Assembly: GCA_009911175.1 (NCBI GenBank)
Contig: QXWX01000029.1
Location: forward strand, 1 to 17,525
DNA length: 17,525 nucleotides
DNA from: Lachnospiraceae bacterium
GTDB taxonomy: Bacteria; Bacillota_A; Clostridia; Lachnospirales; Lachnospiraceae
Direction of reading: 5' to 3'
Below the pieces are notes generated by a model. That model was given only the letters and a program-made list of their open reading frames with translations. It was not told the origin of the DNA and searched no databases. The position numbers and the translations under genes are program-made. This document shows positions 758 through 16,745 of the stretch, piece after piece (positions within the stretch are counted from its first letter, which is position 1; every line of letters starts with the position of its first letter).

Positions 758-1261
758 ATGTGGTATGTCATACAGGTCTACACCGGCAAGGAACTGCAGA
801 TTGCACAGCAGTGCAGGGAAAGAGTGGTGAACGAAGGCGAGGATGTGTTCGTTCCGCTGGCGGAAAGGTGGACCAAGATCCGTGGGGAGAGGACGCTGAT
901 TACATCCAGGCTTTTTCCGGGGTACGTGTTTATTGAGACGGAGAAGATTGAGGACTTTTATAAGCGTCTGAATCGGATCTATGCCATGACCAAGGTGCTG
1001 AGAACCGGGGATGAGATGACGCCGATCCAGAAGGAAGAGGAAGAGTATCTCAGGAAGCTGGGCGGGGATGAGCATGTGGTGAAGTACTCGGAAGGGTATA
1101 TCGAAGGGGATAAGCTGGTGGTGACTTCGGGGCCGCTGAAGGACTTTGAGGGTAGGATTAAAAAGATTTTAAGGCACAAAAGATTAGTTGTGATAGAAGT
1201 CTCTCTTCTTGGACAGACGGCGGAAGTGACGTTGGGGCTGGGGGTTGTGGAGAGAAGGTAA
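758..1261 (+). CDS. loaP: NusG-family antiterminator, LoaP-like, second of the pair
   Basis: This 167-residue protein is a full-length NusG paralog. The NGN domain begins MWYVIQVYTGKE and contains RLFPGYVF (residues 51-58). The KOW domain is near residues 118-160, with the GPLKDFEGRI segment typical of NusG KOW loops. Its start is one base after the stop of the preceding paralog and is preceded by the purine-rich GGAGAAG. It directly precedes a 555-base leader with hairpins and an intrinsic terminator in front of a large polysaccharide operon. This is the genomic setting described for LoaP, whose characterised Bacillus member binds a leader RNA hairpin and promotes processive antitermination. 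The gene is GC-rich compared with the operon it presumably controls. The gene symbol is by family and context, not by proven function. Confidence 0.85.
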   Translation: MWYVIQVYTGKELQIAQQCRERVVNEGEDVFVPLAERWTKIRGERTLITSRLFPGYVFIETEKIEDFYKRLNRIYAMTKVLRTGDEMTPIQKEEEEYLRKLGGDEHVVKYSEGYIEGDKLVVTSGPLKDFEGRIKKILRHKRLVVIEVSLLGQTAEVTLGLGVVERR

Positions 1262-1816: not shown

Positions 1817-3154
1817 ATGGGTAGAACTATAAACTTCAGTATGCCTGATATAAGTGAAGATGAAATTGCAGAAGTTTCTGAAGTGTTGCGGTCAGGTTGG
1901 ATTACTACAGGATCAAAAACGAAGTTGTTGGAGAAAAGGCTGGCTGCGTATATAGAAACAGGATCTACAGATATTGATTGTGAAGAATCAGAGAATATTA
2001 AAAAATACAATAATCGGGTAGTTTGCTTAAATTCTGCTACAGCGGCTGAAGAACTGAATCTCCGAATTTTTGGAGTCGGGTTCGGAGATGAGGTTATTGT
2101 TCCTGCATATACCTATACGGCGAGTGCAAGTGCAGTCATTCATTGCGGTGCAAAGGTTGTATTTGTTGATATTCAAAAGAACGGTGATCCTTTTACGCAT
2201 ATGCCGGAAATAGATTACGATAAGTTAGAGGCTGCAATTACTGAAAAGACTAAGGCAATAATAATGATTGATCTTGGAGGCATTGTTTGTGATTACGAAA
2301 AAGTGTATGAAATTGTGCAGAGAAAAAAAGGACTGTTTAAACCTGTAAAAAGTGATGGTAGTCCTTTATCTAGCTTGTCTTCACGTATTCAAAATGCTGT
2401 TGGACGTGTAGCCGTTATGGCGGATTGTGCGCATAGCCTTGGAGCAAGCCGAGTATTTCGCAGCGAACGGAGATATTGTGGTCAAATGGCGGATTTTACC
2501 AGTTATAGCTTCCATGCGGTAAAAAATATTACTACAGCGGAAGGCGGTGCTTCTACATGGTTGCCTATATCGGGGATTGACAATGCTGAAATATATCACA
2601 TGTATCAGCTTTTATCCCTTCATGGTCAAAATAAGGATGCTTTATCTAAAACAAAGAATGCGGCGTGGGAATATGATATTATTGGCCCATGGTATAAGTG
2701 TAACATGACAGATATCATGGCAGCGATTGGTTTGAAGCAGCTTGATAGATATATTGGTCTGCTTGAAAGAAGAAAGGAAATTATAAATAAATATGATACA
2801 TATTTTAATAGAATGCATATTTTTCATTTAATCCATCATACGTCAGTTATGGACAGTTCGAATCATTTATATTTGATTCGCATTCCAGGGATTACTGTGA
2901 CACAGCGCAATGAAATAATTAAGAAGTTGGCAGAATATGGAGTGATGGCGAATGTGCATTATAAACCGTTGCCTATGATGACTGCTTATGGGAGCGACTG
3001 CAGTTTATATCCGAATGCATACGATTATTATCACAATTTGATCTCACTTCCACTTCATACATTACTATCCAATGAGGATGTTGAATATGCATGTGATTCA
3101 ATGAATGACGTGCTTAAGAAAATTTCATATACGGCAAGGAATAAAATACAATGA
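1817..3154 (+). CDS. DegT/DnrJ/EryC1/StrS-family PLP-dependent aminotransferase
   Basis: This 445-residue fold-type I aminotransferase is the kind that aminates keto-sugar nucleotides with glutamate as donor. Family marks include the N-terminal SGWITTGSKTKLLEKRLA stretch and VVCLNSATAAEELNLRIFG (about 68-86), which binds the cofactor phosphate. DEVIVPAYTYTASA follows at about 91-104, then MADCAHSLGA (about 201-210) with the pyridine-binding Asp, and SYSFHAVKN with the Schiff-base Lys near residue 236. It is longer than the usual 370-400 residues because of inserts near 48-66 and 165-195. The ribosome binding site AAGGGAG precedes the ATG. It overlaps the next gene by an ATGA. The substrate is uncertain: it may be the 4-keto sugar made by the CapE-like enzyme in the same operon (as PseC does in another pathway), another 4- or 3-keto sugar, or a step in the amino-acid part of the pathway. 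Confidence 0.9.
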   Translation: MGRTINFSMPDISEDEIAEVSEVLRSGWITTGSKTKLLEKRLAAYIETGSTDIDCEESENIKKYNNRVVCLNSATAAEELNLRIFGVGFGDEVIVPAYTYTASASAVIHCGAKVVFVDIQKNGDPFTHMPEIDYDKLEAAITEKTKAIIMIDLGGIVCDYEKVYEIVQRKKGLFKPVKSDGSPLSSLSSRIQNAVGRVAVMADCAHSLGASRVFRSERRYCGQMADFTSYSFHAVKNITTAEGGASTWLPISGIDNAEIYHMYQLLSLHGQNKDALSKTKNAAWEYDIIGPWYKCNMTDIMAAIGLKQLDRYIGLLERRKEIINKYDTYFNRMHIFHLIHHTSVMDSSNHLYLIRIPGITVTQRNEIIKKLAEYGVMANVHYKPLPMMTAYGSDCSLYPNAYDYYHNLISLPLHTLLSNEDVEYACDSMNDVLKKISYTARNKIQ

Positions 3155-4203
3155 AAATTACAGTTATTGGAGCTGGGAATTCTGGTTTGGCCATGTCTGC
3201 GCATCTGTCTTATTGCGGTAACGAAGTATGTCTCTGGAATCGCAGCGAGAGAACAATAGCGAAGCTTATAAATACACGGGCCATAAATGTAGATGGTATC
3301 ATTAATGATTCTGTTAAAATCCATAATGTAACAACAAATATGAATGACGCACTCCGGGATACGGAACTGATTCTTTTAACAACGCCAGCAAGTTCATACT
3401 ATGATTTGGCGAAGCTTTTAGCAGTAAAGATGACAAAAAGAGTCCCTATTATTTTAAATCCAGGAAGAACATTTGGTGCATTAAATTTCTATGAAATATA
3501 TAGAGGTTGTGGTGGTATATTGGATCCGATAATTGCAGAAACACAAACGATTATATATACATGTCGAAAAAATGCAGAAGATAATGTGTCTATATATACA
3601 CTTAAAAAAGCTGTGAAACTGGCTTCTTTAAAGAAGAGTGAGGAACAAATTTTTTTTGACATTATGCCACAATGTATTAAAATGCATTACATTTTGGGAA
3701 ACTCGTTTCTTGAAACATCTTTGGGCAACGTAGGAATGGTTCTTCATTGTATACCATTTATGCTTAATACTGGCTGGACAGAGTGTATAGCAGCGGAATA
3801 TAAGTACTATTATGATGGAATTACACCAACAATCGGAAGATTTATTCAACATATAGATGACGAACGCGTAGCTGTTGGAGCAGCGCTAGGAATAAAACTT
3901 GAAACAACTATGGAATGGATGAAGCGTGAGTATGCGACGAAGGGGACAACATTGTATGACTGTATACAAAATAATAAAGCATACAAAGAAATCGATGCGC
4001 CAAAATCAGTTTTTCATCGCTATATTTTTGAGGATGTTCCATATGGTCTGGTTCCATTTGAACGGCTTGGGAATGAACTTGGAATTGATACCCGTTACAT
4101 TACGGTTGCAATAGATCTAGCTAATGCGCTTGTAGAAGAAGATTTTAGAGCTTATATGCAAAATATAAATTTGGAAATAGTGAAAACATTTCTGAAAATG
4201 TAG
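3151..4203 (+). CDS. NAD(P)-dependent octopine/opine dehydrogenase family protein
   Basis: These 350 residues form two domains. The N-terminal Rossmann fold begins MKITVIGAGNSGLAMSAHL, with the GxGNxGxA dinucleotide loop. The C-terminal octopine-dehydrogenase domain carries VGMVLHCIPFMLNTG with the conserved His, then YYDGITPTIGRFIQ, ERVAVGAALGI, and APKSVFHRYIFEDVPYGLVP near the end. Family enzymes reductively join the amino group of an amino acid to a 2-oxo acid, giving N-(carboxyalkyl)amino acids. Some related folds reduce ketopantoate. Its start overlaps the aminotransferase stop (ATGA), with AAGGA about ten bases upstream. Opine-type substituents such as N-(1-carboxyethyl)lysine and alanopine are known in some Proteus and Providencia surface polysaccharides, so a role in making a polymer decoration is plausible. 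The actual substrates cannot be read from the sequence. Confidence 0.85.
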   Translation: MKITVIGAGNSGLAMSAHLSYCGNEVCLWNRSERTIAKLINTRAINVDGIINDSVKIHNVTTNMNDALRDTELILLTTPASSYYDLAKLLAVKMTKRVPIILNPGRTFGALNFYEIYRGCGGILDPIIAETQTIIYTCRKNAEDNVSIYTLKKAVKLASLKKSEEQIFFDIMPQCIKMHYILGNSFLETSLGNVGMVLHCIPFMLNTGWTECIAAEYKYYYDGITPTIGRFIQHIDDERVAVGAALGIKLETTMEWMKREYATKGTTLYDCIQNNKAYKEIDAPKSVFHRYIFEDVPYGLVPFERLGNELGIDTRYITVAIDLANALVEEDFRAYMQNINLEIVKTFLKM

Positions 4204-4204
4204 A

Positions 4205-6148
4205 ATGATAGAAAGTAGAATTTTTCATATGGAATGTAATAAAATGGAAATATTTGGTTTGATTAAAACATTAGGTGACGCACATACAATGGGAATTAGA
4301 TCTGCGGCAGCATTATTGCAGGATTGTGGGTATCAAGTATTGATTTCACCTAGTTATATTGAAGATGCGATGGAAAAGATTTATTTGGAATCGAACCAAG
4401 AACAGATTCTTGATTGGATTCTTAAAAATAATATTTCACACATTGGATTTTCATATAGGCTTGATCCGGACACAGCAGTCAAGTTGATGGGAAGATTGAT
4501 TTATACGTTAAAAGCAAATGGATATTATGAAGGATATAATCCACAGGTGAAAAGTGTTTTTTTTGCAGGGTTGACGCCAGCATGTAACGAAATTGACAAA
4601 GAGTATGGAGGTCGTGTACCAACGTTTCGTGGGGGAGAGTCGGCAGAAGAAACATTGTTGATTATGGGGGTTCCATTTAAGGATATTCCACGACGGATAA
4701 GAACAGGAAATCAATATGACAAAGAGCTTGCTAAATTTGGTGAGAAAATAATAAAAGTGGGTAGATACAAAAAAATGAAAGCCCCCGAACGAAAGAAATA
4801 TCCAGAATTTGGTACAGATAAAGATACATTGGAGTTGCGTCTGGATAATAACTATAAAGAAAGATTTCAACCCATCATCAGAGCGCATTCAGGTCCATAT
4901 TCTGCAGACAGGTCGCGCAACGCGTGTTTAAGAGAGTATTGCAACTGGTGTCATGAACTTGGAAAAGCAGGATTCTTGGACGTGCTTTCCATTGGTTCGT
5001 CACAGTTATCGCAATCTAATTTTGGGGAAAGTTGGGATGGAAAAGCGAACGGTGGCGGGGTTCCGGTTAATTCAGAAACTGAGTATATGGATATTTGGCT
5101 TTCTGCCCGTCCAATGCTGGTTAGAACATATTCCGGCACAAAAAATATTCGAGGGCTTGCAGAAATTTACGAAAGAAGTATAAATATTTCATGGCATGCA
5201 TTATCGCTTTGGTGGTTCAATCAGTTAGATGGTCGTGGACCAAATTCTCTTTATGATAATCTAAAAGAACATCTGGAAACAATTCGTTATATTGCAATAA
5301 CTAACAAACCAGTTGAGACGAATGTTTCTCATCATTTTGCATTTCGTGGATGTGATGATGTAACTTACATTTTAGCTGGGTTTCTTGCAGCCAAGACGGC
5401 TAAAAGATATGGTGTTAAGACATTTGTTCTTCAAAATATGTTGAATACACCCAGGAGTACATGGGGAATACAGGATTTGGCTAAAGGACGGACGCTGTTA
5501 AAGCTCGTAAAAGAATTAGAAGATAAAGACTTCCGTGTGATTTTTCAGACGAGAGCAGGTCTTGACTATTTTAAACCGAATATCGAAGTAGCAAAGGCAC
5601 AGTTGGCTTCTGTGACAGCGATGATGGACGATATCGATCCATTTAATGAGTATAGCCCTGATATAATTCATGTCGTAAGCTATTCAGAAGCGTTGTTTCT
5701 TGCCACTCCAGAGGTTATTAATGACAGCATTAAAATTACACGAACTGCTTTGCAGGAGTATAGAAAACAAAAGAATCAGGGTAATACTCCGGATGTTATG
5801 ACAGATGAAATAAAAATACGTCAGACAAGATTAGAGAGTTCAGTAAGAAAGATAATTAGAGCAATGGAAGAGAATGTATCAGATTTGTATTCACCGGAAG
5901 GACTATATCTCGCTTTTGTTGCTGGCTGGCTTCCAGTACCGGAGTTATGGTCTGATTCGGAAGAGTTTCGCTATGCAAAAGGATGGGGAACTAAATTAAT
6001 GGATGGAGGAATGGCTCTTTGTAATCATGAAATGTTTGTAACAGATGACGATAGGATTCACCAGTGTATCGGTAATATGTCTGATGCAAAATACATATTA
6101 AAACATAAATATTTAAAACACTGTTATGGTGAGAAAGCAAAGTATTGA
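4205..6148 (+). CDS. Cobalamin-binding protein with glutamate-mutase (GlmE/MutE)-like barrel
   Basis: The 647-residue protein begins with a B12-binding domain (about 14-160). It contains D25-A-H27-T-M-G30, an exact DxHxxG motif whose His would be the lower axial cobalt ligand, and a later GG at 143-144. A linker leads to a barrel-like region (about 222-520) and a C-terminal segment that resemble the epsilon subunit of glutamate (methylaspartate) mutase. ARPMLVRTYSGTKNIRGLAEI (about 301-320) aligns with the GlmE segment holding a substrate-binding Arg. LAGFLAAKTAKRYGVKTFVL and the final AGWLPVPELW...AKGWGTKLMDGG have GlmE counterparts. This suggests an adenosylcobalamin-dependent carbon-skeleton rearrangement with the B12 and catalytic domains fused, opposite to the separate S and E subunits of clostridial glutamate mutase. 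C241, C246 and C249 form CX4CX2C, not the radical-SAM CX3CX2C. The start has no clear ribosome binding site; ATGs at 4229 and 4244 are alternatives. The family link is by memory-based comparison, and the reaction is unknown. Confidence 0.75.
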   Translation: MIESRIFHMECNKMEIFGLIKTLGDAHTMGIRSAAALLQDCGYQVLISPSYIEDAMEKIYLESNQEQILDWILKNNISHIGFSYRLDPDTAVKLMGRLIYTLKANGYYEGYNPQVKSVFFAGLTPACNEIDKEYGGRVPTFRGGESAEETLLIMGVPFKDIPRRIRTGNQYDKELAKFGEKIIKVGRYKKMKAPERKKYPEFGTDKDTLELRLDNNYKERFQPIIRAHSGPYSADRSRNACLREYCNWCHELGKAGFLDVLSIGSSQLSQSNFGESWDGKANGGGVPVNSETEYMDIWLSARPMLVRTYSGTKNIRGLAEIYERSINISWHALSLWWFNQLDGRGPNSLYDNLKEHLETIRYIAITNKPVETNVSHHFAFRGCDDVTYILAGFLAAKTAKRYGVKTFVLQNMLNTPRSTWGIQDLAKGRTLLKLVKELEDKDFRVIFQTRAGLDYFKPNIEVAKAQLASVTAMMDDIDPFNEYSPDIIHVVSYSEALFLATPEVINDSIKITRTALQEYRKQKNQGNTPDVMTDEIKIRQTRLESSVRKIIRAMEENVSDLYSPEGLYLAFVAGWLPVPELWSDSEEFRYAKGWGTKLMDGGMALCNHEMFVTDDDRIHQCIGNMSDAKYILKHKYLKHCYGEKAKY

Positions 6149-6159
6149 AGGATAAAAGA

Positions 6160-6777
6160 ATGTATAAGAATTTTATAAAGCGGATATTAGATATTTTGGT
6201 TTCAATGATTGGACTTCCATTCTTTTGCTTGGTATTTTTTATATTTGCTCCAATCATTCATCTTTCCGATAAGGGACCAGTATTTTATAACGCGCCACGC
6301 CTTGGCAAGAATGGAAAAATTTTTAATATGTACAAATTTCGCTCCATGAAAGTGAATGCCCCAGACATTAGAAATTCAGATGGTTCTACTTTTAATGGCT
6401 CAGATGATCCACGTGTTACTAAAGTAGGTAAATTTATACGTAAAACCAGTATTGATGAACTACCACAAATTATAAATGTTTTAAAAGGAGATATGAGCTT
6501 AGTAGGTCCTCGTGCATTTTTGGCTTCAAAAAATAAATCATATGACGAATATGATGAAAAACGAAAAAAACGTCTGACTGTAAGGCCTGGTATAACAGGC
6601 TATTCGCAGGCAAAATTTAGAAATTCGATAGATACGGAACAGAAGATAGAAAATGATTGCTATTATGTAGATCATGTAAGTTTTTTGGGTGATGTAAAAA
6701 TATTGTTAGATACAGTTGTTTCAGTTTTAAAAAATAAAAATATATATAATACGAATAGTAGAAAAAGAGATGATTAG
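6160..6777 (+). CDS. Polyprenyl-phosphate phosphoglycosyl transferase (bacterial sugar transferase)
   Basis: This monotopic phosphoglycosyl transferase of 205 residues is PglC/WcaJ-core-like. It transfers a sugar phosphate from a nucleotide sugar to undecaprenyl phosphate and so starts the repeat unit at the inner face of the membrane. Visible marks are an N-terminal KRILDILVSMIGLP re-entrant membrane helix, PRLGKNGKIFNMYKFRSM, the catalytic Asp-Glu in SIDELPQ (residues 97-103), GDMSLVGPR and VRPGITG. I choose the ATG at 6160, with AAGGA about seven bases upstream. A TTG at 6145 overlapping the previous stop would add five residues and is less likely. The small size, lacking the extra membrane domain of WbaP/WcaJ, is normal for the PglC type. 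The sugar it uses is unknown. Confidence 0.93.
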   Translation: MYKNFIKRILDILVSMIGLPFFCLVFFIFAPIIHLSDKGPVFYNAPRLGKNGKIFNMYKFRSMKVNAPDIRNSDGSTFNGSDDPRVTKVGKFIRKTSIDELPQIINVLKGDMSLVGPRAFLASKNKSYDEYDEKRKKRLTVRPGITGYSQAKFRNSIDTEQKIENDCYYVDHVSFLGDVKILLDTVVSVLKNKNIYNTNSRKRDD

Positions 6778-6779
6778 TA

Positions 6780-7961
6780 ATGAAAAAGTTGCTTGTAGTT
6801 GGTGCTTCAATTTTGCAACTTCCAGCAATAATTAAAGCAAAAGAAATGGGATTTAAGGTTGCTGTCGCAGATTACAATCCAAAAGCAATAGGGATTAGAT
6901 ATGCGGATCAATACTTTAATGTAAGTACGGTAGATACTAACGGAATTATTGCGATTGCGAAAAAATATAAACCTGATGGAATTATGACACTTGCAACAGA
7001 TATGCCGATGCGTGCGATTGCCGCTGCATGTCAGGCGTGCAGTCTTCCAGGAATCAGTTATGAAACGGCTGTTAAGGCGACTGATAAAGGAGAAATGATA
7101 AAGGCTTTTGAAAAACATGATGTGGAGCATCCCTGGTATTATATTGCGGAAAATCGGACAGTATTTGAAGGACTTCTAAACAGTATTACGTTTCCATGTA
7201 TTATGAAACCAACTGACAATGCAGGAAGCAGAGGTGTTGTATTGTGCCATGATAAAGATATGTTAAAAAAGGAATATCAGTACTCTTGTAAGGAATCTAG
7301 AAATGGTGCAATTATTATTGAAGAATATCTTCAAGGGCCGGAAGTTAGTGTGGAAGTTATGATTATCGAAGGTGAACCACATGTTCTTCAGATTACGGAT
7401 AAAATGACAACAGGCGCCCCTCATTTTGTAGAAATGGGGCATAGTCAGCCAAGCAGAGAGTGCGAAGATAATCAAGAAAAAATAAAAGGGCTGGCTTGTC
7501 GGGCAGTGAAAGCAATAGGCATTCAGCGTGGTCCTGCTCATGTAGAAATAATATTGACAGCTCAAGGGCCTAAAATGGTGGAGCTTGGTGCGCGAATGGG
7601 TGGGGATTGCATTACAACACACTTGGTTCCTCTTTCAACGGGGATTGATATGGTAAAATGTACAATTGAAATAGCTTGTGGAATGAAAACGGATATCAGT
7701 CCTAAATTCCAAAAGGCATCGGCTATAAAATATTTTAATACTCCTTCAGGTATTTTGATGTCAATCGATGGTGTGGAAGCGGCTAAAAAGCTTCCGGGTA
7801 TTCAGGAAGTATCGTTTGTTAAAACAGTAGGGGAAAGAATAAAAGCAATTAGTAGCAGTGGAGATCGAATCGGATTTGTGATTGCGCAAGATGAGTCTCC
7901 TGAGCTTGCGATAGAGACATGTACAAGAGCAATGGAGAGTGTTTTGATTCGGGTAAAATAG
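6780..7961 (+). CDS. ATP-grasp ligase, first of two in tandem
   Basis: This 393-residue protein has ATP-grasp architecture. The N-terminal nucleotide-binding-like subdomain begins MKKLLVVGASILQLPAIIKA. The ATP-grasp core holds KPTDNAGSRGV (about 143-153) with the ATP-binding Lys and glycine loop, EEYLQGPEVSVE (181-192), GPAHVEI (251-257) and the magnesium-binding MVELGARMGGD (266-276). The fold is that of PurK/PurT/biotin-carboxylase-like carboxylate-amine ligases, which form an acyl phosphate and join it to an amine or thiol. In this operon a likely role is amide-bond formation between an amino acid (or opine-type acid) and a sugar amine or uronic acid, or assembly of a small peptide-like precursor. 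It starts three bases after the phosphoglycosyl transferase stop, and a second ATP-grasp gene follows. The substrates are not predictable from motifs. Confidence 0.88.
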   Translation: MKKLLVVGASILQLPAIIKAKEMGFKVAVADYNPKAIGIRYADQYFNVSTVDTNGIIAIAKKYKPDGIMTLATDMPMRAIAAACQACSLPGISYETAVKATDKGEMIKAFEKHDVEHPWYYIAENRTVFEGLLNSITFPCIMKPTDNAGSRGVVLCHDKDMLKKEYQYSCKESRNGAIIIEEYLQGPEVSVEVMIIEGEPHVLQITDKMTTGAPHFVEMGHSQPSRECEDNQEKIKGLACRAVKAIGIQRGPAHVEIILTAQGPKMVELGARMGGDCITTHLVPLSTGIDMVKCTIEIACGMKTDISPKFQKASAIKYFNTPSGILMSIDGVEAAKKLPGIQEVSFVKTVGERIKAISSSGDRIGFVIAQDESPELAIETCTRAMESVLIRVK

Positions 7962-7970
7962 TTTGTGGAT

Positions 7971-7975
7971 GGAGG
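7971..7975 (+). promoter_or_regulatory. Ribosome binding site deciding the start of the second ATP-grasp gene
   Basis: GGAGG sits seven bases before the ATG at 7983. A GTG at 7965 in the same frame would place this site inside the gene, so the ATG is preferred. Confidence 0.75.
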
Positions 7976-7982
7976 AAATAAA

Positions 7983-9215
7983 ATGGATCTTACTGGGAAA
8001 AGACTATTGATTTTAGGGGGGACTCGGTTAATGATTCATGTAGTAAAGACTGCAAAGGGAATGGGAGTATATACAGTTGTTACGGATATGGATCCGTATT
8101 CTCCAGCTAAAGCATATGCGGATCGGGCTTATGATATAAGCACAAAAGAAATAGATGATGTTACAAAAATGGCATTAGAAGAAAAAATAGAAGGAGTATT
8201 CGCTGGATATGATGATCAAAACACAGGTTATGCGATAGAAATATGCGAAAAACTGGGACTTCCTTTTTATGCAACAAAAGAGCAAATAAATATAACCAAA
8301 AATAAGAGTTTATTTAAAAGATTATGTAGAGAATATGGGTTGCCTGTCGTAACGGAATATGCTTTAGATGAGGTTGAGTATCCTTGCGTCGTAAAACCGA
8401 CAGACAGCTATTCTGCAAAAGGGATTACCATTTGCTATAGCAAGGACGAATTGGATAAAGCAATAAAATATGCATTATCATTTTCAGCATCAGGGCAATA
8501 TCTAATTGAAAAATATGTAGATTATACAGTAGCTGATTGTGTTAATATCGATTACTTATTGATCGATGGAGAAATAATATTAACCTTGGTAGGAGATAAG
8601 GTAGTTGTCAAACAAGGAAATAAAGCTCCTTTAACCGATGCCGTATTTTATCCTTCTAAGCATGTGGATAAATATGTTGCGATGATGGATGAAAAGATGA
8701 AAAAGATGTTTGAGAGTATCAATATGAAAAATGGAGTTGTTTTTATTGAGAGCTTTTTTGATGCAGATGGTTTTGCAATTTATGAAATGGGCTATCGTGT
8801 AGGTGGCGGACAAAGTTCGATTTTATTGGATCAAATGTGTGGTGTGGATTATATAAAACTACTTATCCAATTTGCTTTGACTGGGAATATGACGCATGAA
8901 AAATTAGAGTTGATCGATCCAGGAAAAGTTATGTTCGCTTGCGGACAGGTTGTTTTGATAAAACCCGGTACAATTGGAAAAATCGAAAATATAGATGAAA
9001 TTCAGAGGATGCCTGGTGTAGTAAATATTACTCAATACTTGAATGTTGGGGATTCTGTTGATAGTAAATATTGGGGAACATTAGGACAAACATTTGCCAG
9101 AATTCATGTTGTAGAAAAAGACGAACAAATGTTATTGAACACGTTAAGAAAAATTAAAAATAGATTACATGTAAAGGATGGAAAGGGAAAAGACATGATT
9201 GTAAGGACGAGGTGA
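7983..9215 (+). CDS. ATP-grasp ligase, second of two in tandem
   Basis: This 410-residue ATP-grasp protein has the same order of parts as its neighbour but low identity. An N-terminal subdomain begins GKRLLILGGTRLMIHVVK. It is followed by KPTDSYSAKGI (about 138-148), EKYVDYTVADCVNID (176-190), VVFIESFFDADG (252-263) and YEMGYRVGGG (267-276). The resemblance is to carboxylate-amine ligases found in polysaccharide clusters. Divergence from the first copy argues against a recent duplication and for two different ligation steps. The EMGYRVGGGQ segment replaces the usual E-x-N/G-x-R metal and phosphate site in a form common to this subgroup. A strong GGAGG precedes the ATG, and the next gene starts five bases after the stop. 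Function is inferred from fold and context. Confidence 0.86.
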   Translation: MDLTGKRLLILGGTRLMIHVVKTAKGMGVYTVVTDMDPYSPAKAYADRAYDISTKEIDDVTKMALEEKIEGVFAGYDDQNTGYAIEICEKLGLPFYATKEQINITKNKSLFKRLCREYGLPVVTEYALDEVEYPCVVKPTDSYSAKGITICYSKDELDKAIKYALSFSASGQYLIEKYVDYTVADCVNIDYLLIDGEIILTLVGDKVVVKQGNKAPLTDAVFYPSKHVDKYVAMMDEKMKKMFESINMKNGVVFIESFFDADGFAIYEMGYRVGGGQSSILLDQMCGVDYIKLLIQFALTGNMTHEKLELIDPGKVMFACGQVVLIKPGTIGKIENIDEIQRMPGVVNITQYLNVGDSVDSKYWGTLGQTFARIHVVEKDEQMLLNTLRKIKNRLHVKDGKGKDMIVRTR

Positions 9216-9220: not shown

Positions 9221-10441
9221 GTGAAAATATTATTTTTTATAACGAGCAGTATGGAAAGGCCAAGCCCTTCGTGGCATCTAATGAAAGCACTGCTGGAAGA
9301 TACGCTGAGAGCCGGGATCTCAATACATGCGATACAGAGACACTTTCCAAATCCAGAGATGCTACCGTTTCCTGAAACAATTTTAAATAATAAATTGTTT
9401 TCCTATTCACAGATAAACGATATAGTAATTGATCGAAGAGATTTTGTTGGCCGTTATTTAAACGGTATTGTATATTCGATAAAATCAATGAGGCTATATC
9501 GAAAAAACAATGATTTTGATATGATTTTTGTTCAATCAGCGGCTACGTCATTGTTTTATATAGCAGTAGCTAAACACTATGCTAAAAACAGACCGGTATT
9601 ATATAACAGTCAGGATATGTTTCCAGGCAGTGCAGTGGCAAATGGTTCAATGCCAAAAAAATGGATGCAAAAAGTATTTTACTGTTTACAAAAAATAGCC
9701 TATAAAAAGGCAGATATTATAACGGCAATTTCAGAGGATATGAAAAGGAAGCTTCTTGAGCAGGGGGTACCGGAAGAAAAAATAAGGGTAATTGTCAATT
9801 GGTATGACGATGCTTCCGTACGGGAAATTCCTTGGAATGAGAACCGATTTGTTAAGAACAATCATTTATCACCAAAAAAGTTTTATATTCAATACGCAGG
9901 AACGATGGGGACAAATTTTAATCCTGAAATTATTCTAGAAACCGCAGAACGACTAAAAGGATATCTGGATATTGAATTTCAGATGATTGGTGATGGGATT
10001 AGAAAGAAATATTTGGAATCTGAGGCAGAACAAAGAGGTTTAAACAATATTGTTTTTTATCCTTTGCAGTCTCAAGATATGGTTTCGGATGTCTATAGTG
10101 CATGTTCAGTTTGTTTAATTCCGTTGATAAAAGGCGTTATTGGAAATTCTGTGCCCAGTAAGGCAGCTCTACTTATGGCCTGTGGACGTATTATAATCAA
10201 TTCGGTAGATGATGAATGCGATTATGGTCGAATTTTTGAGGACGAAAAAATAGGTTTTTCATCTGGCACTGCGGATTCAGAGAAAATAGCAGATGACATT
10301 TTGTTTTTATACAGGAATCCGATTATCAAAGCGGAATATGAAGAACGAGCAAAAGAATTTGCCAAAAGAGAGTATTCAAGAACAGTGAATACAATTAAAT
10401 ATATAGAGATATTTCAGCATATTGCACAGGGAGTGAAATAG
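9221..10441 (+). CDS. GT4-family glycosyltransferase, WbuB-like
   Basis: This 406-residue GT-B glycosyltransferase begins MKILFFITSSMERPSPSWHL. Its N-terminal acceptor half includes NSQDMFPGSAV, and AEIITAIS-type residues (ADIITAISEDMKRKL) mark the domain linker. The C-terminal donor half holds YAGTMGTNFNPEIILE, MIGDGIRKKYLE and the conserved NSVPSKAALLMACGR nucleotide-sugar site. The overall look is that of WbuB-like transferases, which often sit beside fnlABC/capEFG genes and transfer L-FucNAc-type sugars. The CapE- and CapF-like genes of this operon are consistent with an L-6-deoxy-HexNAc donor. It is the only recognisable non-initiating glycosyltransferase here. The start is a GTG. Confidence 0.88.
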   Translation: MKILFFITSSMERPSPSWHLMKALLEDTLRAGISIHAIQRHFPNPEMLPFPETILNNKLFSYSQINDIVIDRRDFVGRYLNGIVYSIKSMRLYRKNNDFDMIFVQSAATSLFYIAVAKHYAKNRPVLYNSQDMFPGSAVANGSMPKKWMQKVFYCLQKIAYKKADIITAISEDMKRKLLEQGVPEEKIRVIVNWYDDASVREIPWNENRFVKNNHLSPKKFYIQYAGTMGTNFNPEIILETAERLKGYLDIEFQMIGDGIRKKYLESEAEQRGLNNIVFYPLQSQDMVSDVYSACSVCLIPLIKGVIGNSVPSKAALLMACGRIIINSVDDECDYGRIFEDEKIGFSSGTADSEKIADDILFLYRNPIIKAEYEERAKEFAKREYSRTVNTIKYIEIFQHIAQGVK

Positions 10442-10442
10442 C

Positions 10443-11615
10443 ATGCATATGAGGAAAACAAAAACATGCAAGATATCTTGGACGAAACAAATATGTTATT
10501 TATTTTTTATTTTTTGCTTTATTCCTTTTTTGTTTCCAAATCCAATTGTAAAAACAAATATTCAGCCATATGCAGCAATATTGGGATCAATAATTCTTTT
10601 TCTATGGGGAAATAAAATTAAAACTATTCCGGCGGGGAGTATATGGATGCTAATTAGTAGTATGACATTTTTGGCATCAGTAATTCTTATATTTGTCAAT
10701 GGGATAACAATAAACGCATTTCGAGCAATTTATAATTACTTTGCCCTGTTTGCTATTCCTTGTGCAGTTGTAGTTTCATTGGTGCTTTTAGATGGTATTC
10801 CGGAACGCTTGTTTAAAATTATGATTATGCTTTGGTTTGTTGTATCAACCATTCAGTTTTTTGTTTATAGAGGTTTTGCGACAAACTTGATAAGCGCTGT
10901 TCGTTGGAGCTTTGAATATAGAGGTGTTGTCGGGCTTGCGTCGGAACCTTCTTTTTTGGGCATTTCTTCTTTCTACTTCTTGCATATTGTACAAAGATTT
11001 AAAGAAAAGAAAATTATTTATACGATTCTGATCATCGCAATGGGAACATTGTATGCACAGAGTGCTATAGGAGTGTTATTTATAGCAGGTTACTACATGG
11101 TTTATTTAATGGATGTGATAAATAGTAAGAAAGGAGTCGCCATTTGGATAGGATCTATAATAGCAGCAATAAGTTTTTTTATTTTGCTTAATACAAAGTT
11201 ATCAGGCACTAGATTGAATCAAATGATAGGCTCTCTTTTCACGGATGGAATAAGCGGTGTTTTATCCGATGCAAGCGCAGGTGTTAGATTTAATGCGATT
11301 AAAGGCGCTTTGAATAGAGCTTTTAAAAATATGCTTATTCCAAATGGATTTAATTCCAGAATAGGTAGTGGGTATGGAGGTCTACTTGTAGAGCTCGGTG
11401 TGTTGGCAATTCCCATAATGACGATGATTTCAATTTGGATGAGTAAGACATTTAAAAGATTATTTAGTCAGATTATATATTTTATTGTAATAACACTATT
11501 GCTATTCAATAATACTCAAATGGGAAATCCATTATTGCTTCTTGTTATAGGAATAAATTTATTTTATTTAACAGATAGTGTTAGAGTCTCTGTATACAAT
11601 GGAGCAAAAGTATGA
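10443..11615 (+). CDS. wzy: Wzy-like polysaccharide polymerase, multi-pass membrane protein
   Basis: The 390 residues consist largely of hydrophobic segments, about ten to eleven in number. A short basic N-terminus (MHMRKTKTCK) precedes the first. Polymerases of this type join lipid-linked repeat units on the outer face of the membrane. Sequence identity between families is low, so the assignment rests on topology, on the GLASEPSFLGISSFYF motif (about 164-177, resembling the SEPS motif of O-antigen ligase/polymerase proteins), on a polar external loop containing SAGVRF, and on position beside a flippase. It is preceded by GGGAG nine bases upstream and overlaps the next gene by ATGA. An ATG at 10449 is an alternative start. 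Confidence 0.8.
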   Translation: MHMRKTKTCKISWTKQICYLFFIFCFIPFLFPNPIVKTNIQPYAAILGSIILFLWGNKIKTIPAGSIWMLISSMTFLASVILIFVNGITINAFRAIYNYFALFAIPCAVVVSLVLLDGIPERLFKIMIMLWFVVSTIQFFVYRGFATNLISAVRWSFEYRGVVGLASEPSFLGISSFYFLHIVQRFKEKKIIYTILIIAMGTLYAQSAIGVLFIAGYYMVYLMDVINSKKGVAIWIGSIIAAISFFILLNTKLSGTRLNQMIGSLFTDGISGVLSDASAGVRFNAIKGALNRAFKNMLIPNGFNSRIGSGYGGLLVELGVLAIPIMTMISIWMSKTFKRLFSQIIYFIVITLLLFNNTQMGNPLLLLVIGINLFYLTDSVRVSVYNGAKV

Positions 11616-12838
11616 TTCGATTCATTAAAGAATATAAAAGAATTATAATAGATTTTTTATACAGTTTTGTTTCATATATCTTGCCAACATTTGCATTACA
11701 ATTTGTAATACAACCTCTGATTGCAAGGAGGATGTCCGCTGAGGAAAACGGTTTGTTTATTACTTTGTTTAATGTTATTAAGCTTGTCACAGGTGTATTT
11801 ATCATGCCGCTTGCAAATTTGCGTTTATTAAAAAAGAATGAATGCAATGAACAAAAGGAATATAATGCATTTTTCAATTATTTATTTTTAACAGCTGTCT
11901 TATATACCGTGTTTATAGGAAGTTTAATGAATGGAGCCTACCACAAATTGCTTTTTGATATAGGGAATATTAGTAGATTAGGGATTGTACTGGTTTTGAT
12001 AAGTATTCATGATTATTATATGATATCTTTTAGAATTGATCTTAATTACAAGAAAATTGTAGTAGAAAATCTTTTGATTGTTTTTGGATATGGAATCGGA
12101 ACGCTTCTTTTTATGAGGTATGGTCACTGGGAGTATATATTCATATGTGGTTATTTTTTAGGAACTATATTTGTTTTGACAAATACTGTTTTATGGCAAG
12201 ACTTCCCGAGAAAGGAGAATGGGAAAGCGTTAATTGGACAATACAGAGAACTAAGTGCTTCGTCTGCTTTGAATAATGTGTCTATTTATTGTGATAGAAT
12301 GATTATTTATCCGGTTTTAGGTGGATATGCGGTGTCTGTATATAATGCAGCATCAATTGTAAGTAAATCCATTTCGGTTGTAAGCGCACCATTAAGAAAT
12401 GTATTGCTAAGCTATATTGTAAATAGTAATGATTTAAGTATCAGCAAAAGAAAGTTTAAGCGATACATATTTCTTTTTGGCGGAGCAGGAATAATTGTTT
12501 TCTGTGTGTTCTGGGGATTTAGTTTATATGCATGTGATTTGTTATACCCAAAGTATGCAAACTCTGCAAAGGGATTTATTCCAATTATTGTATTGTCAAT
12601 AATGATTGAGACAATAGCTGGAATTCTGAATATTTTATTGTTGCGATTTGCAAAAACAGAAGTACAGACAGCTGTTTCAGCGCTAAAATTAAGTGTGTAT
12701 TTGATATGCGTATGTATGTTGTCACTAATACTAAAATGTGGCTTGTGGGGGTTCTGCATAGCAATAATGATGGCTTCATTTACACAAATAATAGCAGTTT
12801 GTATTGGATTAAGAAAAAAAATAAAGTTTGTTGAATAA
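11612..12838 (+). CDS. wzx: Wzx-like flippase (MOP superfamily)
   Basis: This 408-residue membrane protein has about twelve hydrophobic segments. Features of the MOP/polysaccharide-export fold include an N-terminal amphipathic stretch before YSFVSYILPTFALQFVIQPLIARRMSAEE, the helix-loop with LSASSALNNVSIYCDRMIIYPVLGG in the middle, and the SIVSKSISVVSAPLRNVLLSYI segment after it. It would move the undecaprenyl-linked repeat unit across the membrane for polymerisation by its neighbour. Its start overlaps the polymerase stop codon, suggesting translational coupling. Substrate specificity cannot be deduced. Confidence 0.85.
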   Translation: MIRFIKEYKRIIIDFLYSFVSYILPTFALQFVIQPLIARRMSAEENGLFITLFNVIKLVTGVFIMPLANLRLLKKNECNEQKEYNAFFNYLFLTAVLYTVFIGSLMNGAYHKLLFDIGNISRLGIVLVLISIHDYYMISFRIDLNYKKIVVENLLIVFGYGIGTLLFMRYGHWEYIFICGYFLGTIFVLTNTVLWQDFPRKENGKALIGQYRELSASSALNNVSIYCDRMIIYPVLGGYAVSVYNAASIVSKSISVVSAPLRNVLLSYIVNSNDLSISKRKFKRYIFLFGGAGIIVFCVFWGFSLYACDLLYPKYANSAKGFIPIIVLSIMIETIAGILNILLLRFAKTEVQTAVSALKLSVYLICVCMLSLILKCGLWGFCIAIMMASFTQIIAVCIGLRKKIKFVE

Positions 12839-12853
12839 TGGGAGGAAATATTT

Positions 12854-13876
12854 ATGGGAGTATTTGACGGAAAAGTCCTACTAATTACAGGTGGCACGGG
12901 ATCTTTTGGTAATGCTGTTTTGAAAAGGTTTTTAAATACAGATATTCGGGAAATTCGGATTTTTTCCAGGGATGAATTGAAACAGGATGATATGCGTAGA
13001 CATTACCATAATGACAAGATTAAATTCTATATTGGCAATGTAAAAGATATTGAATCAGTAAGAAATGCAGTACATGGTGTGGATTATATTTTTCATGCGG
13101 CAGCGTTAAAGCAAGTTCCTTCCTGTGAGTTTTTTCCGGTTGAAGCAGTAAAGACGAATGTGATTGGAACAGAGAACGTATTAACAGCATCTATTGAGGA
13201 GGGAGTGCGTTCGGTGATTTGTCTTTCAACAGACAAAGCAGCATATCCCGTAAATGCAATGGGAACCTCTAAGGCAATGATGGAAAAGGTGATTGTTGCT
13301 AAAAGCAGAACAACCATGCAGACGAAAATCTGCTGCACTCGATATGGCAACGTTCTTTGTAGCAGAGGAAGTGTGATTCCGTTGTGGATTGAACAGATTC
13401 AAGGAGGAAAACAATTAACATTAACAGATCCCACAATGACCCGATTTATTATGTCATTGGAAGAAGCAGTTGATTTGGTTTTGTTTGCTTTTGAAAAAGG
13501 TTTTAGTGGAGATATTCTTGTTCAAAAGGCGGCAGCCACAACCATAGAAGTTTTGGCAGATGCACTAAAGCGTCTTTTTAAGTATGAATGTGAAAACAAG
13601 ATAATTGGTCTTCGCCATGGTGAAAAAACATATGAGACTTTGCTAACTGATGAAGAATGTTATCATGCAGTTGACTTGGGGCATTTTTATAGAATTCCTT
13701 GCGATAAGAGAGATTTAAATTATGAAAAGTACCTTAGTGAGGGAACAGATCGAATTGGAGTAACTCAATTTAACAGTAATAATACTAAATTGTTGACTGT
13801 TGAGGAAACGATGAAGAAATTGTTGGAACTTGAATATATTAGAAATGAATTGGCGAAAACTGGAATCATATACTGA
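12854..13876 (+). CDS. capE: UDP-GlcNAc 4,6-dehydratase/5-epimerase, CapE/FnlA-like
   Basis: This 340-residue extended short-chain dehydrogenase/reductase has the nucleotide loop GGTGSFG (13-19), the HAAALKQVP strand and the active-site stretch STDKAAYPVNAMGTSK (125-140). The usual Tyr of YxxxK is replaced by Met (MGTSK), which is characteristic of CapE. CapE/FnlA removes water from UDP-GlcNAc and inverts C5 to give UDP-2-acetamido-2,6-dideoxy-L-arabino-4-hexulose, the first step towards UDP-L-FucNAc. The ribosome binding site GGGAGG lies eight bases before the ATG, so this gene opens a freshly initiated translational block after the flippase. It pairs with the CapF-like gene that follows. 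FlaA1/PseB-type dehydratases give the same product but keep Tyr, which favours CapE. Confidence 0.9.
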   Translation: MGVFDGKVLLITGGTGSFGNAVLKRFLNTDIREIRIFSRDELKQDDMRRHYHNDKIKFYIGNVKDIESVRNAVHGVDYIFHAAALKQVPSCEFFPVEAVKTNVIGTENVLTASIEEGVRSVICLSTDKAAYPVNAMGTSKAMMEKVIVAKSRTTMQTKICCTRYGNVLCSRGSVIPLWIEQIQGGKQLTLTDPTMTRFIMSLEEAVDLVLFAFEKGFSGDILVQKAAATTIEVLADALKRLFKYECENKIIGLRHGEKTYETLLTDEECYHAVDLGHFYRIPCDKRDLNYEKYLSEGTDRIGVTQFNSNNTKLLTVEETMKKLLELEYIRNELAKTGIIY

Positions 13877-13925: not shown

Positions 13926-15161
13926 ATGAATATCTTAGTAACGGGTGCGTTGGGTTTTATTGGACAGAATTTTGTGGAAAATTTAAAAACAATCCGAGAT
14001 GGGAAGAATCAAACTCGACCTAATATAATTATAGATAAAATTTATGAGTATGATAAAAATAACACATTAGAAGAACTGGATATATTTTGCTCGGACTGCG
14101 ATTTTGTGTTTAATTTTGCCGGTGTAAACCGTCCTAAAGATTTAGAAGATTTCAATAAAGGAAATTATGAATTTGCATATATCCTGTTAAATACACTAAA
14201 GAAACATGAAAATAAAGCATCAGTCATGTTAGCTTCATCAATCCAGGCAACACTCGGTGGCCGATTTGGTGTCACAGAGTATGGTTTGAGCAAGAAAGCA
14301 GGAGAAGATCTATTTTTTGCGTATGCCATTGAAACGGGAGCTAAAGTCCTTGTTTATCGTTTTCCAAACGTGGCTGGTAAATGGGTGCGACCTAATTATA
14401 ACAGTGTAGTTGGAACATTTTGCTATAATATTGCTAATGATTTGCCCATTACTGTAAGTAATCCTTCCGTTGAACTCGAAATACTTTTTATTGATGACTT
14501 AATAGACGAATTGTATGATGCGCTTGAAGGAAAAGAACATCATTGTATATATCCGGCAATGGGAGAGAAAATTGATGGCATTGTATACGATGGAGTGACT
14601 CCTCTGTGGTCAGATGAGGGAAAGTATTGCGGAGCAGTAACTACACATAAAGCTACTTTGGGAGAGATTGCAGAGAGGATTTCTACATTCCATGCTCAGC
14701 CAAATACTCTTATAATGCCCAGAATTACGGCGGGTTCGTTTGAATATAAACTCTATTCTATGTACTTGTCTTATCTGCCAAAAAATAAGATGATGTTCGA
14801 CCTTAAAATGAATACAGATGAACGAGGGAGTTTTACAGAACTTTTAAAGTCAGTTGATTATGGACAGATTTCTGTCAACATTATAAAACCTGGAATCACA
14901 AAGGGACAACATTGGCATAATACGAAATGGGAATACTTTTTTGTGGTGTCTGGTCACGGTTTAATTCGGGAAAGAAAAATTGGAACAGATGAAATGATTG
15001 AAATTGAGGTAAATGGAGAACATATCCAAGCAGTACATATGCTTCCTGGATATACTCATAGTATTACCAATTTAAGTGATATGGAGAATCTGATAACGGT
15101 AATGTGGGCAAATGAAATTTTTGATTCAAATTACCCAGATACATTTTTTGAGCCAGTTTAA
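13926..15161 (+). CDS. capF: CapF/FnlB-like bifunctional reductase/epimerase with C-terminal cupin
   Basis: This 411-residue, two-domain enzyme has an N-terminal SDR domain with GALGFIG (7-13), SSIQATL around Ser104 and YGLSKK (Tyr119, Lys123). The C-terminal cupin (about 290-411) contains GQHWHNTKWEYFFVVSG and LPGYTHSITN, with metal-ligand-like His329, His331, Glu336 and His378. In CapF the cupin epimerises C3 and the SDR domain reduces C4 with NADPH. The product is UDP-2-acetamido-2,6-dideoxy-L-talose (UDP-L-PneNAc). It is longer than the roughly 370-residue staphylococcal CapF, with extra sequence around residues 205-260. AGAGGA lies five bases before the ATG. The expected partner CapG/FnlC is not in the window. 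Confidence 0.92.
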   Translation: MNILVTGALGFIGQNFVENLKTIRDGKNQTRPNIIIDKIYEYDKNNTLEELDIFCSDCDFVFNFAGVNRPKDLEDFNKGNYEFAYILLNTLKKHENKASVMLASSIQATLGGRFGVTEYGLSKKAGEDLFFAYAIETGAKVLVYRFPNVAGKWVRPNYNSVVGTFCYNIANDLPITVSNPSVELEILFIDDLIDELYDALEGKEHHCIYPAMGEKIDGIVYDGVTPLWSDEGKYCGAVTTHKATLGEIAERISTFHAQPNTLIMPRITAGSFEYKLYSMYLSYLPKNKMMFDLKMNTDERGSFTELLKSVDYGQISVNIIKPGITKGQHWHNTKWEYFFVVSGHGLIRERKIGTDEMIEIEVNGEHIQAVHMLPGYTHSITNLSDMENLITVMWANEIFDSNYPDTFFEPV

Positions 15162-15185: not shown

Positions 15186-16745
15186 ATGGATAAAGTGCCA
15201 GAGAAGGTTGATTATGAGATTGATTTGCTTGATTTAATGTTTTATTGTTTAGAAAAATGGAGAGTCATTATATTTTCCATGTTGATTTTTGCAATAGTGC
15301 TAGGGGGATATAAATATCGAACGACTGTGAAAGAAAATTTATCAAAACAGCAAGAAATACTTTTTTTGCAAAAAGAGCAAGAAAAAAGAGATGAACAAGA
15401 AAAAAAAGAAAAGGCAGAACAGAGCATAGAAGCGAAAAATGAAAAGGAAATAAAAGAAGTTGATACTAGGTCTATAAAATCTTACAAGTTAGAAATTGAG
15501 AAAAGTGAACATATTTTGCAGAGACAAGAAGCGTATTTAAAACAATCTGTCGTTATGCAGTTAGATCCATACCATATTTCAACAGGGACATTAAGCTTTT
15601 ATATGGAAGGAGGAGACCATGTAGATACGTTGCTTTCTGCTTATCAAGTTTATATATCAGATGGAAGTCTGGCAAAAGATTTGCATTCTACGAATTCTGA
15701 GATTTCTGTAGAAGATTTGCGGTATTTGATTTCCTTCACGAATAGTGCAAATAGAACATATGAATTGGGAAATAATCAGGTGATACAGACTGTGCGGCCA
15801 GGAGACATTGTATTTCAAATACAAATTAAAATGCCGGATAGCGATTTGTGCGAGTTCTTTTTGAAGCAAGCGCAACAATTTATAATTGAATATTCAAATC
15901 AATTACAAACAGAGATGAATAGACATAATTTAACATTATTATCATCCTCCCAAGCTGAGATAACGGATTTAGATATTGAAAAATATCAATCTACTATACA
16001 TGCAGCATATACATCTTCCATTAAAAATTTACAGACATTAGAATCAGAATTAGACATGCTTTTATCTACAGAAGAAGAGGAAAAAATATCTGAGGAAAGT
16101 GTGGAAGAAATAAGTGAAGATGAGCAGAAATTAGACGAAAGTGAAGAAATTATATTAGTTGACCCTATATCTTCAACAATGATTTATGTTGCAACAGGGT
16201 TATTAATGGGAGCATTTTTATCATGCATAGCGTTGGCACTTCTTTATATAATGAGCGGCAGGTTACAAAACACGAAAAATTTTAAAGCCGAGTATGGAAT
16301 TCCAGTATTAGGATTCATTTATAATTTTTCCCAAAAAGGAAAATTTTTTGGATTTATAGATAGGTGGATTTATCGATTGCAGAAAGGAGTATATGCTAAA
16401 ATTGAATTTGATGAACAAATGAAGATAACGATAGCCAATATTAAAGTTGCAATTGAAGGAATTTCCACGCAAAAAAAAATAAAAAAGGTTATGCTTGCCG
16501 GTACAATATCAGAGAATGAAGCAGCAGAGCTATGTAGCCAGTTGAATACCAAAGCACAAGATTTTTCATTATCGTCATATAGACAGATTGTATTTTGCGC
16601 TATGGATCTTCAAGATTTGGTCAATTATGATGCACTACTTTTCATAGAGAAAAAAGGAGTGTCCTATTCGGAATTAATTTTTCAGGAAAAAAAATTAGCT
16701 TTGGATAGAAAAGTTGATATCTTAGGAGCAATTGTTATATCTTAG
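15186..16745 (+). CDS. Wzz/YveK-type chain-length determinant with degenerate BY-kinase-like domain
   Basis: This 519-residue membrane protein has a short cytoplasmic N-terminus, a transmembrane segment at about 26-44 and a long external region. That region holds a Lys/Glu-rich coiled coil (about 48-120) and an acidic stretch before the membrane (295-322). The second transmembrane segment is at about 331-357, and a cytoplasmic tail of about 160 residues follows. Chain-length proteins with this two-helix topology control polymer size with Wzy. The tail looks like a bacterial tyrosine kinase (BY-kinase) domain: KKVMLAG (433-439) is where Walker A normally starts, and DALLFIEKKGVSYSELIFQEKKL (482-504) and ILGAIVIS match the end of that fold. 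However, no GKS/T loop is present (ISENEAAEL instead) and no Tyr cluster ends the protein. It is therefore probably catalytically dead. A separate kinase gene is absent from the window. Confidence 0.8.
   Translation: MDKVPEKVDYEIDLLDLMFYCLEKWRVIIFSMLIFAIVLGGYKYRTTVKENLSKQQEILFLQKEQEKRDEQEKKEKAEQSIEAKNEKEIKEVDTRSIKSYKLEIEKSEHILQRQEAYLKQSVVMQLDPYHISTGTLSFYMEGGDHVDTLLSAYQVYISDGSLAKDLHSTNSEISVEDLRYLISFTNSANRTYELGNNQVIQTVRPGDIVFQIQIKMPDSDLCEFFLKQAQQFIIEYSNQLQTEMNRHNLTLLSSSQAEITDLDIEKYQSTIHAAYTSSIKNLQTLESELDMLLSTEEEEKISEESVEEISEDEQKLDESEEIILVDPISSTMIYVATGLLMGAFLSCIALALLYIMSGRLQNTKNFKAEYGIPVLGFIYNFSQKGKFFGFIDRWIYRLQKGVYAKIEFDEQMKITIANIKVAIEGISTQKKIKKVMLAGTISENEAAELCSQLNTKAQDFSLSSYRQIVFCAMDLQDLVNYDALLFIEKKGVSYSELIFQEKKLALDRKVDILGAIVIS

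Follow-up and report, generated by a model that had tools for sequence, protein, structure and literature searches.

A fused cobalamin-dependent mutase-like protein and its opine-dehydrogenase-like partner suggest a two-gene route to a non-standard amino acid

Introduction

Adenosylcobalamin (AdoCbl)-dependent amino-acid mutases are, to our knowledge, known from fermentation and a few antibiotics. Here we analysed a 17,525-nucleotide stretch of Lachnospiraceae DNA (contig QXWX01000029.1, hereafter the window) that encodes a fused AdoCbl-dependent mutase-like protein next to an opine-dehydrogenase-like protein. The closest described system is glutamate mutase (GlmS plus GlmE, EC 5.4.99.1), with which the window mutase shares the predicted barrel fold, the histidine ligand of the B12 domain, an equivalent of Glu330 and, in some sister forms, an association with MutL, which we take to be the reactivase or chaperone of glutamate mutase. 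Unlike glutamate mutase, it is a single chain with the B12 domain first, it has a dehydrogenase partner, and its substrate arginines are replaced. The partner resembles N-(1-D-carboxylethyl)-L-norvaline dehydrogenase (CENDH, PDB 1bg6) over nearly its full length and keeps the catalytic Arg/His/Asp, but it neighbours a B12 mutase in almost every locus seen. Many sister loci carry leaders of the cyclic di-AMP (c-di-AMP; ydaO/yuaA) regulon upstream on the same strand, and we know of no B12 mutase with an opine dehydrogenase among the targets of that regulon. An unnamed family from thermophilic Bacillota, labelled 'cobalamin B12-binding domain-containing protein', has the same two-domain fusion and the same partner gene; it differs from the window family in its shorter chain and its frequent position behind a riboswitch.

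We regard it as moderately probable that the two genes constitute a pathway in which an uncharacterised AdoCbl radical mutase and an opine dehydrogenase yield a non-standard amino acid for osmolyte, envelope or glycan use. The observed base of this reading is the predicted fold, the cobalt-ligand motif, the gene pairing, the placement of riboswitches and the ligase neighbours.

Results

A predicted mutase fold in a single chain

The 647-residue protein comprises a B12-binding domain (about residues 14–160) and a glutamate-mutase-like barrel (about residues 204–620). Both domains were present in the predicted structures, where the barrel was of GlmE type with GlmE as the best PDB fold match, bearing out the fusion that the first-pass annotation had proposed. 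The DxHxxG motif with His27 at the cobalt-ligand position, to which that annotation had also pointed, was conserved in 40/40 rows of family A (about 635 residues, including the window protein), and the domain fold agreed with it. A single-sequence search of the PDB sequences with the window mutase gave no match, a profile search gave two matches at chance level, and no match was found in the viral contigs searched. The profile comparison with Met_asp_mut_E that the annotation had proposed as a check put none of the 40 family-A rows above the Pfam cut-off.

Two sister families, B (about 550 residues) and C (about 1,230 residues), were found by searching a sample of 299 genomes from the phylum to which genome G003 belongs. 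The homology of A and B was clear (hhalign E 5e-81), and Met_asp_mut_E matched four of six family-B proteins at E 8e-6 to 4e-7, two of them over the cut-off, and a fifth at E 0.0065, with no match for the sixth; hhalign with family B gave E 1.4e-4. The models thus suggest that the window mutase is an AdoCbl-type mutase of the glutamate mutase fold, in an uncharacterised branch of the superfamily.

The barrel fold that lysine 5,6- and ornithine 4,5-aminomutases require is also present in the window mutase. An enzyme of that type would carry out a pyridoxal phosphate (PLP)-dependent amino shift, and the dehydrogenase would oxidise the product as in ornithine or lysine fermentation. We consider this unlikely, given that family B matched Met_asp_mut_E while the Pfam aminomutase models were not reported for it at E up to 0.1; the extra domain for the PLP lysine was not evident either, though no direct test for it was made. 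B12 domains of methionine synthase likewise match the B12 domain of the window mutase, and some sister proteins are publicly labelled methionine synthase, as would suit a corrinoid methyltransferase, B12 carrier or B12 sensor devoid of mutase activity. The predicted structures hold a mutase barrel as well, and we judge such a protein very improbable.

A pocket that differs from that of glutamate mutase

We aligned 12 family-A, 10 family-B and 7 GlmE sequences jointly with MAFFT in two modes, with GlmE numbering set through the 6h9e alignment (position in alignment A2 plus 41). The functional roles of the GlmE residues, including Glu330 as the adenosyl-binding glutamate, are presumed here. At about 17% identity to GlmE, the substrate arginines R66, R100 and R149 were not matched in the window mutase: the R66 and R149 columns held His228 and Tyr309 in both modes, and the R100 column held Gln270 in one mode and a gap in the other. 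As a caveat on this mapping, Arg226 and Arg307 precede the R66 and R149 columns by two residues. E171 fell on an invariant Asp342 in the MAFFT alignment, the family-B hhalign placing the E171 region differently, and K326 on Val491. E330 corresponded to Glu495 of family A (40/40) and E414 of family B (24/24), and an independent profile alignment of family B with GlmE again gave Tyr for R149 and Glu for E330.

Four arginines (226, 307, 344 and 450) were invariant in all 40 family-A rows and Arg381 was found in 39, with one gap; the counterparts of all five were invariant in family B (24/24) and were also seen, by eye in the printed sequence, in the family-C protein. Some of these arginines may interact with cobalamin instead of the substrate. 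Taken together, the five conserved arginines and the three replaced ones indicate that the pocket is probably rich in positive charge, yet not the pocket of GlmE. The first-pass annotation had called the region around the substrate arginine GlmE-like and the protein glutamate-mutase-like; since the three substrate arginines are not conserved, 'glutamate mutase' is not a fitting name, and the substrate class that the annotation named is wrong.

MutL bears on the same question. In locus L083 (1739–5380), the family-C mutase continues as a MutL domain (PF13941, E 4.9e-81, residues 694–1209 of 1214), and in L124 (genome G086) the B12 domain, barrel and MutL likewise lie in one open frame of about 1,230 residues. 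MutL adjoins the mutase in L077, L081 and L110 and lies 1.3 kb away in L065; none was seen in the window. All 17 GlmE control loci had MutL. These links, the GlmE fold match and the acidic-amino-acid genes near relatives (glutamate dehydrogenase and a family-3 solute-binding protein in L019, an SDF symporter in L025) would suit a true glutamate mutase that converts L-glutamate to 3-methylaspartate, which the operon would attach to a polysaccharide. R66, R149 and probably R100 are, however, unconserved in A or B, with the comparison of B and GlmE agreeing for R149, and several genomes (e.g., G003, G135 and G304) carry both a real GlmE and this family. Moreover, the dehydrogenase lay within 1.5 kb at 0/17 GlmE control loci. 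We therefore find a true glutamate mutase quite unlikely.

An opine-dehydrogenase-like gene is the partner of the mutase

One base separates the end of the dehydrogenase gene from the start of the mutase gene in the window. By sequence, the closest solved structure to the dehydrogenase is 1bg6 (E 3e-54). Its R290, H199 and D295, the counterparts of what we take to be the catalytic residues of 1bg6, were invariant in 20/20 aligned sequences, so the enzyme looks active.

A dehydrogenase gene lay within 300 bp on the same strand in 18/26 family-A loci (15 of the 19 with 1.5 kb on both sides), a count in which three loci are truncated at the mutase (L003, L014 and L023) and one has a short flank on one side (L012). 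The corresponding figures were 34/36 for family B and C loci and 20/20 for further B and C loci, one of them cut at a contig end; the two genes also adjoined in 2/2 further family-A loci and 2/2 Bacteroidota family-B loci. The dehydrogenase was upstream of the mutase in 17/18 A and 33/34 B/C cases. In L006 and L081, other genes of the same run separated it from the mutase. The adjacent opine-dehydrogenase-like gene is thus a real partner of the mutase. The first-pass annotation missed both this gene and the commonness of such fusions, whose sister forms occur in 58 of the 299 genomes.

Riboswitches and ligases near the pair

The c-di-AMP riboswitch (RF00379) was found upstream of the pair on the same strand in 25/56 family B and C loci. 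These were 19 of the 36 loci L048–L083 (L048, L049, L053, L054, L058, L059, L061, L063, L066, L067, L069–L073, L078, L079, L081 and L082) and 6 of the 20 loci L106–L125 (L108, L109, L113, L115, L116 and L122). The leaders scored 64 to 110 bits (cut-off 38). L067 had two in tandem; in L116 the gene directly after the riboswitch was an ATP-grasp gene, and in L081 the dehydrogenase alone followed it directly. None was found within 1.5 kb of the GlmE loci (0/17), and no cobalamin riboswitch reached the gathering score in the loci scanned. The 20 genomes concerned (19 of sister loci and that of L006), which were chosen for this arrangement, held 45 RF00379 copies over the cut-off, and in six of these preselected genomes (G304, G007, G085, G207, G030 and G182) the copy at the pair was the only one. 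In L109, an OLE RNA (RF01071, 474 bits) was located at 4172–4824, near the riboswitch-controlled pair.

In Bacillus thuringiensis, the same riboswitch class shuts off a K+ uptake operon at high c-di-AMP levels (PMC6488665). By analogy with this OFF switch, the riboswitch placement points, as a best guess, to an osmotic or envelope role for the product of the pair. In L134, genes for an MscS channel and a trehalose phosphatase lie downstream of the pair.

An AsnB-like gene comes after the pair or lies together with it in L006, L054, L058, L071, L134 and L135, and one lies 2.3 kb off in L055. The N-terminal glutaminase Cys was missing in three of these seven (L006 6487–7971, L134 7373–8725 and L135 4964–6301); AsnB relatives lacking it presumably form amides without glutamine. 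ATP-grasp genes were near the pair in the window, L001, L014, L015, L016, L024, L062, L074, L075, L076 and L081 and in the further loci L107, L110, L116, L118, L122 and L133, being divergent in L062, L074, L076 and L110; L059 and L078 had weaker matches further from the pair. All these neighbour counts are raw, with no formal background rate. In L006, the dehydrogenase, AsnB and mutase genes are followed at 9967–12542 by two-part class I fumarase-type genes and a malic enzyme gene.

Those fumarase and malic enzyme genes, amino-acid transporters near some loci and the fact that many hosts are anaerobes, as judged from their names, would be in keeping with a catabolic pair by which anaerobes degrade an amino acid or opine for energy. 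The riboswitch in 25/56 sister loci, the ligase neighbours and the members in glycan clusters favour biosynthesis, and we deem the catabolic reading decidedly improbable.

Families and spread

A phylogenetic tree separated families A (100/100), C (100/100) and B (98/96); the tree program flagged both the joining of the long A and C branches and the length of the L075 row. In the phylum of G003, 61/299 genomes had a match, three through family A and 58 through sister forms. Family A is patchy, with 3/299 genomes in the family of G002 (Lachnospiraceae), G002 counted in. The profile matched 3/198 genomes in the phylum of G004 (Bacteroidales), namely G004 itself and two family-B forms. Among the best 120 matches listed, family-B hosts included Thermoanaerobacter, Caldanaerobacter and Thermoanaerobacterium, and the public labels included 'cobalamin-dependent protein', 'cobalamin B12-binding domain-containing protein' and 'methionine synthase'. 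The idea that the window protein is unique was rejected, as 2870 of 7999 scored candidates matched at E 0.001; with the sister query, 7680 of 7999 matched. In L030 (G135), the mutase match was split into two pieces that overlap, one of them with a stop, and the copy is thus probably a broken or misassembled one.

Operon setting and glycan loci

The mutase gene lies in a tightly packed operon, and the window genes are listed in Table 1. The DegT-type aminotransferase gene overlaps the dehydrogenase gene by four bases, and the enzyme likely makes an amino sugar. The sugar transferase would start the repeat unit, the first ATP-grasp ligase is a candidate for coupling the mutase product to an amine, and the NusG-family pair are likely operon antiterminators. 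No FnlC-like epimerase was found among the window genes scanned, and 10443–12838 and 15186–16745 had no Pfam match; the labels Wzx, Wzy and Wzz for these regions were dropped, since only length and position would speak for them. The window can fairly be read as a surface-polysaccharide locus, possibly a capsule locus, in line with the first-pass annotation, and the context that the annotation named was the narrower one.

Table 1. Features of the window on the forward strand
Feature	Positions	Strand	Remarks
NusG-family proteins, two in tandem	172-756, 758-1261	+	ahead of polysaccharide genes
DegT-type aminotransferase	1817..3154	+	PF01041 E 9e-76
Opine-dehydrogenase-like partner	3151..4203	+	350 aa; PF02317 E 8e-45
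Fused AdoCbl-dependent mutase-like protein	4205..6148	+	intact open reading frame
Bacterial sugar transferase	6145..6777	+	PF02397 E 1e-63; overlaps mutase gene end
ATP-grasp ligase with L-amino-acid-ligase C-terminal domain	6780..7961	+	PF13535, PF18603
Second ATP-grasp protein	7965..9215	+	
Glycosyltransferase, GT4 type	9221..10441	+	
FnlA-like UDP-GlcNAc 4,6-dehydratase/5-epimerase	12854-13876	+	under NCBIfam equivalog cut-off
FnlB/WbcJ-like reductase	13926-15161	+	under NCBIfam equivalog cut-off

Other loci have comparable cassettes. The pair occurs with DegT and ATP-grasp genes in L015 (with rml genes), L075 (near a gene for a TibC/GT9-type glycosyltransferase) and L133 (together with LicD and an IspD-type cytidylyltransferase). 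In L001 there are an ATP-grasp gene and one of nucleotide-sugar epimerase type, and a Wzz-type gene follows the pair in L132. Since L075 belongs to family B and the other glycan loci to family A, glycan use probably arose more than once. A tree count on four labels was weak (three changes versus a shuffled mean of 3.9). For the other family-A loci, including the two-gene runs L017–L022 and L026, no glycan setting was seen, and L075 was the sole family-B locus seen in a glycan-type cluster, the neighbours of many B loci being unannotated.

Discussion

From the fold, the pairing and the neighbourhoods, we infer catalysis, a substrate class, an osmolyte role and glycan attachment for the dehydrogenase–mutase module. 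His27 of the N-terminal domain would ligate the cobalt, and the barrel would bind the adenosyl group, with Glu495 standing for Glu330 of GlmE, as well as a polyanionic substrate of amino-acid type. Hydrogen abstraction followed by a 1,2-shift would rearrange this substrate, and the NAD(P)-dependent opine-dehydrogenase-like enzyme would supply the substrate or process the product by C–N reduction or oxidation. The resulting non-standard amino acid would often be passed on to an AsnB-like or ATP-grasp enzyme for amidation or ligation. At many sister loci, with the c-di-AMP riboswitch in control, the compound would act as an osmolyte or as part of the envelope; at a few glycan-type loci, the window among them, an ATP-grasp ligase would link it to an amino sugar of the surface polysaccharide.

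A more specific version is tentative, and we hold it to be possible but on the unlikely side: a c-di-AMP-controlled, B12-dependent compatible-solute route in which the dehydrogenase would build an opine from an amino acid and a keto acid, the mutase would rearrange it, for example from the N-(1-carboxyalkyl) to the N-(2-carboxyalkyl) form, and AsnB-like or ATP-grasp enzymes would finish it, gut bacteria having recruited the chemistry for surface polysaccharides. Such a rearrangement would fit the five arginines that families A, B and C have in common.

Several observations weigh against the proposed pathway. The sequence link between the window family and GlmE is weak (hhalign E 0.006). MutL is not universal, being over the cut-off in only 21/34 genomes, with 13 lacking it by the same test, and is fused or near in only 6/56 sister loci. 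The dehydrogenase was not found in the Aminicenantes loci L011 (8 kb flanks), L012 and L013 (about 2.4 kb) or within the flanks of L051, and it lies 6.1 kb off in L025. The osmolyte role rests on the sister families, because the window has no c-di-AMP riboswitch and family A has one in L006 only (1/24 loci scanned; the scan left out L012, L023, L132 and L133). Further, 31/56 sister loci have no such riboswitch, and the 25 that do are not 25 independent events, since the tree shows these loci to be mutually related.

Searches of full texts under Creative Commons licences found nothing linking glutamate mutase with opine dehydrogenase; nothing linking opine dehydrogenase, polysaccharide and carboxyethyl; nothing on methylaspartate in lipopolysaccharide O-antigen; and nothing on the c-di-AMP riboswitch with glutamate mutase or with opine dehydrogenase and a cobalamin-binding protein. 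Methylaspartate mutase with capsule, and glutamate mutase with exopolysaccharide, returned only unrelated papers, judging from the listing, and octopine dehydrogenase together with cobalamin and a mutase came up in one genome paper.

These results suggest that the dehydrogenase–mutase module is an undescribed route to an unusual amino acid used under salt stress or in surface decoration. If so, a large mutase family would tie vitamin B12 to osmotic and envelope homeostasis, a use of B12 that the present labels 'cobalamin-dependent protein' and 'methionine synthase' mask. The mutase–dehydrogenase pair would then predict an undescribed metabolite and, in some bacterial surface polysaccharides, a rearranged amino acid.
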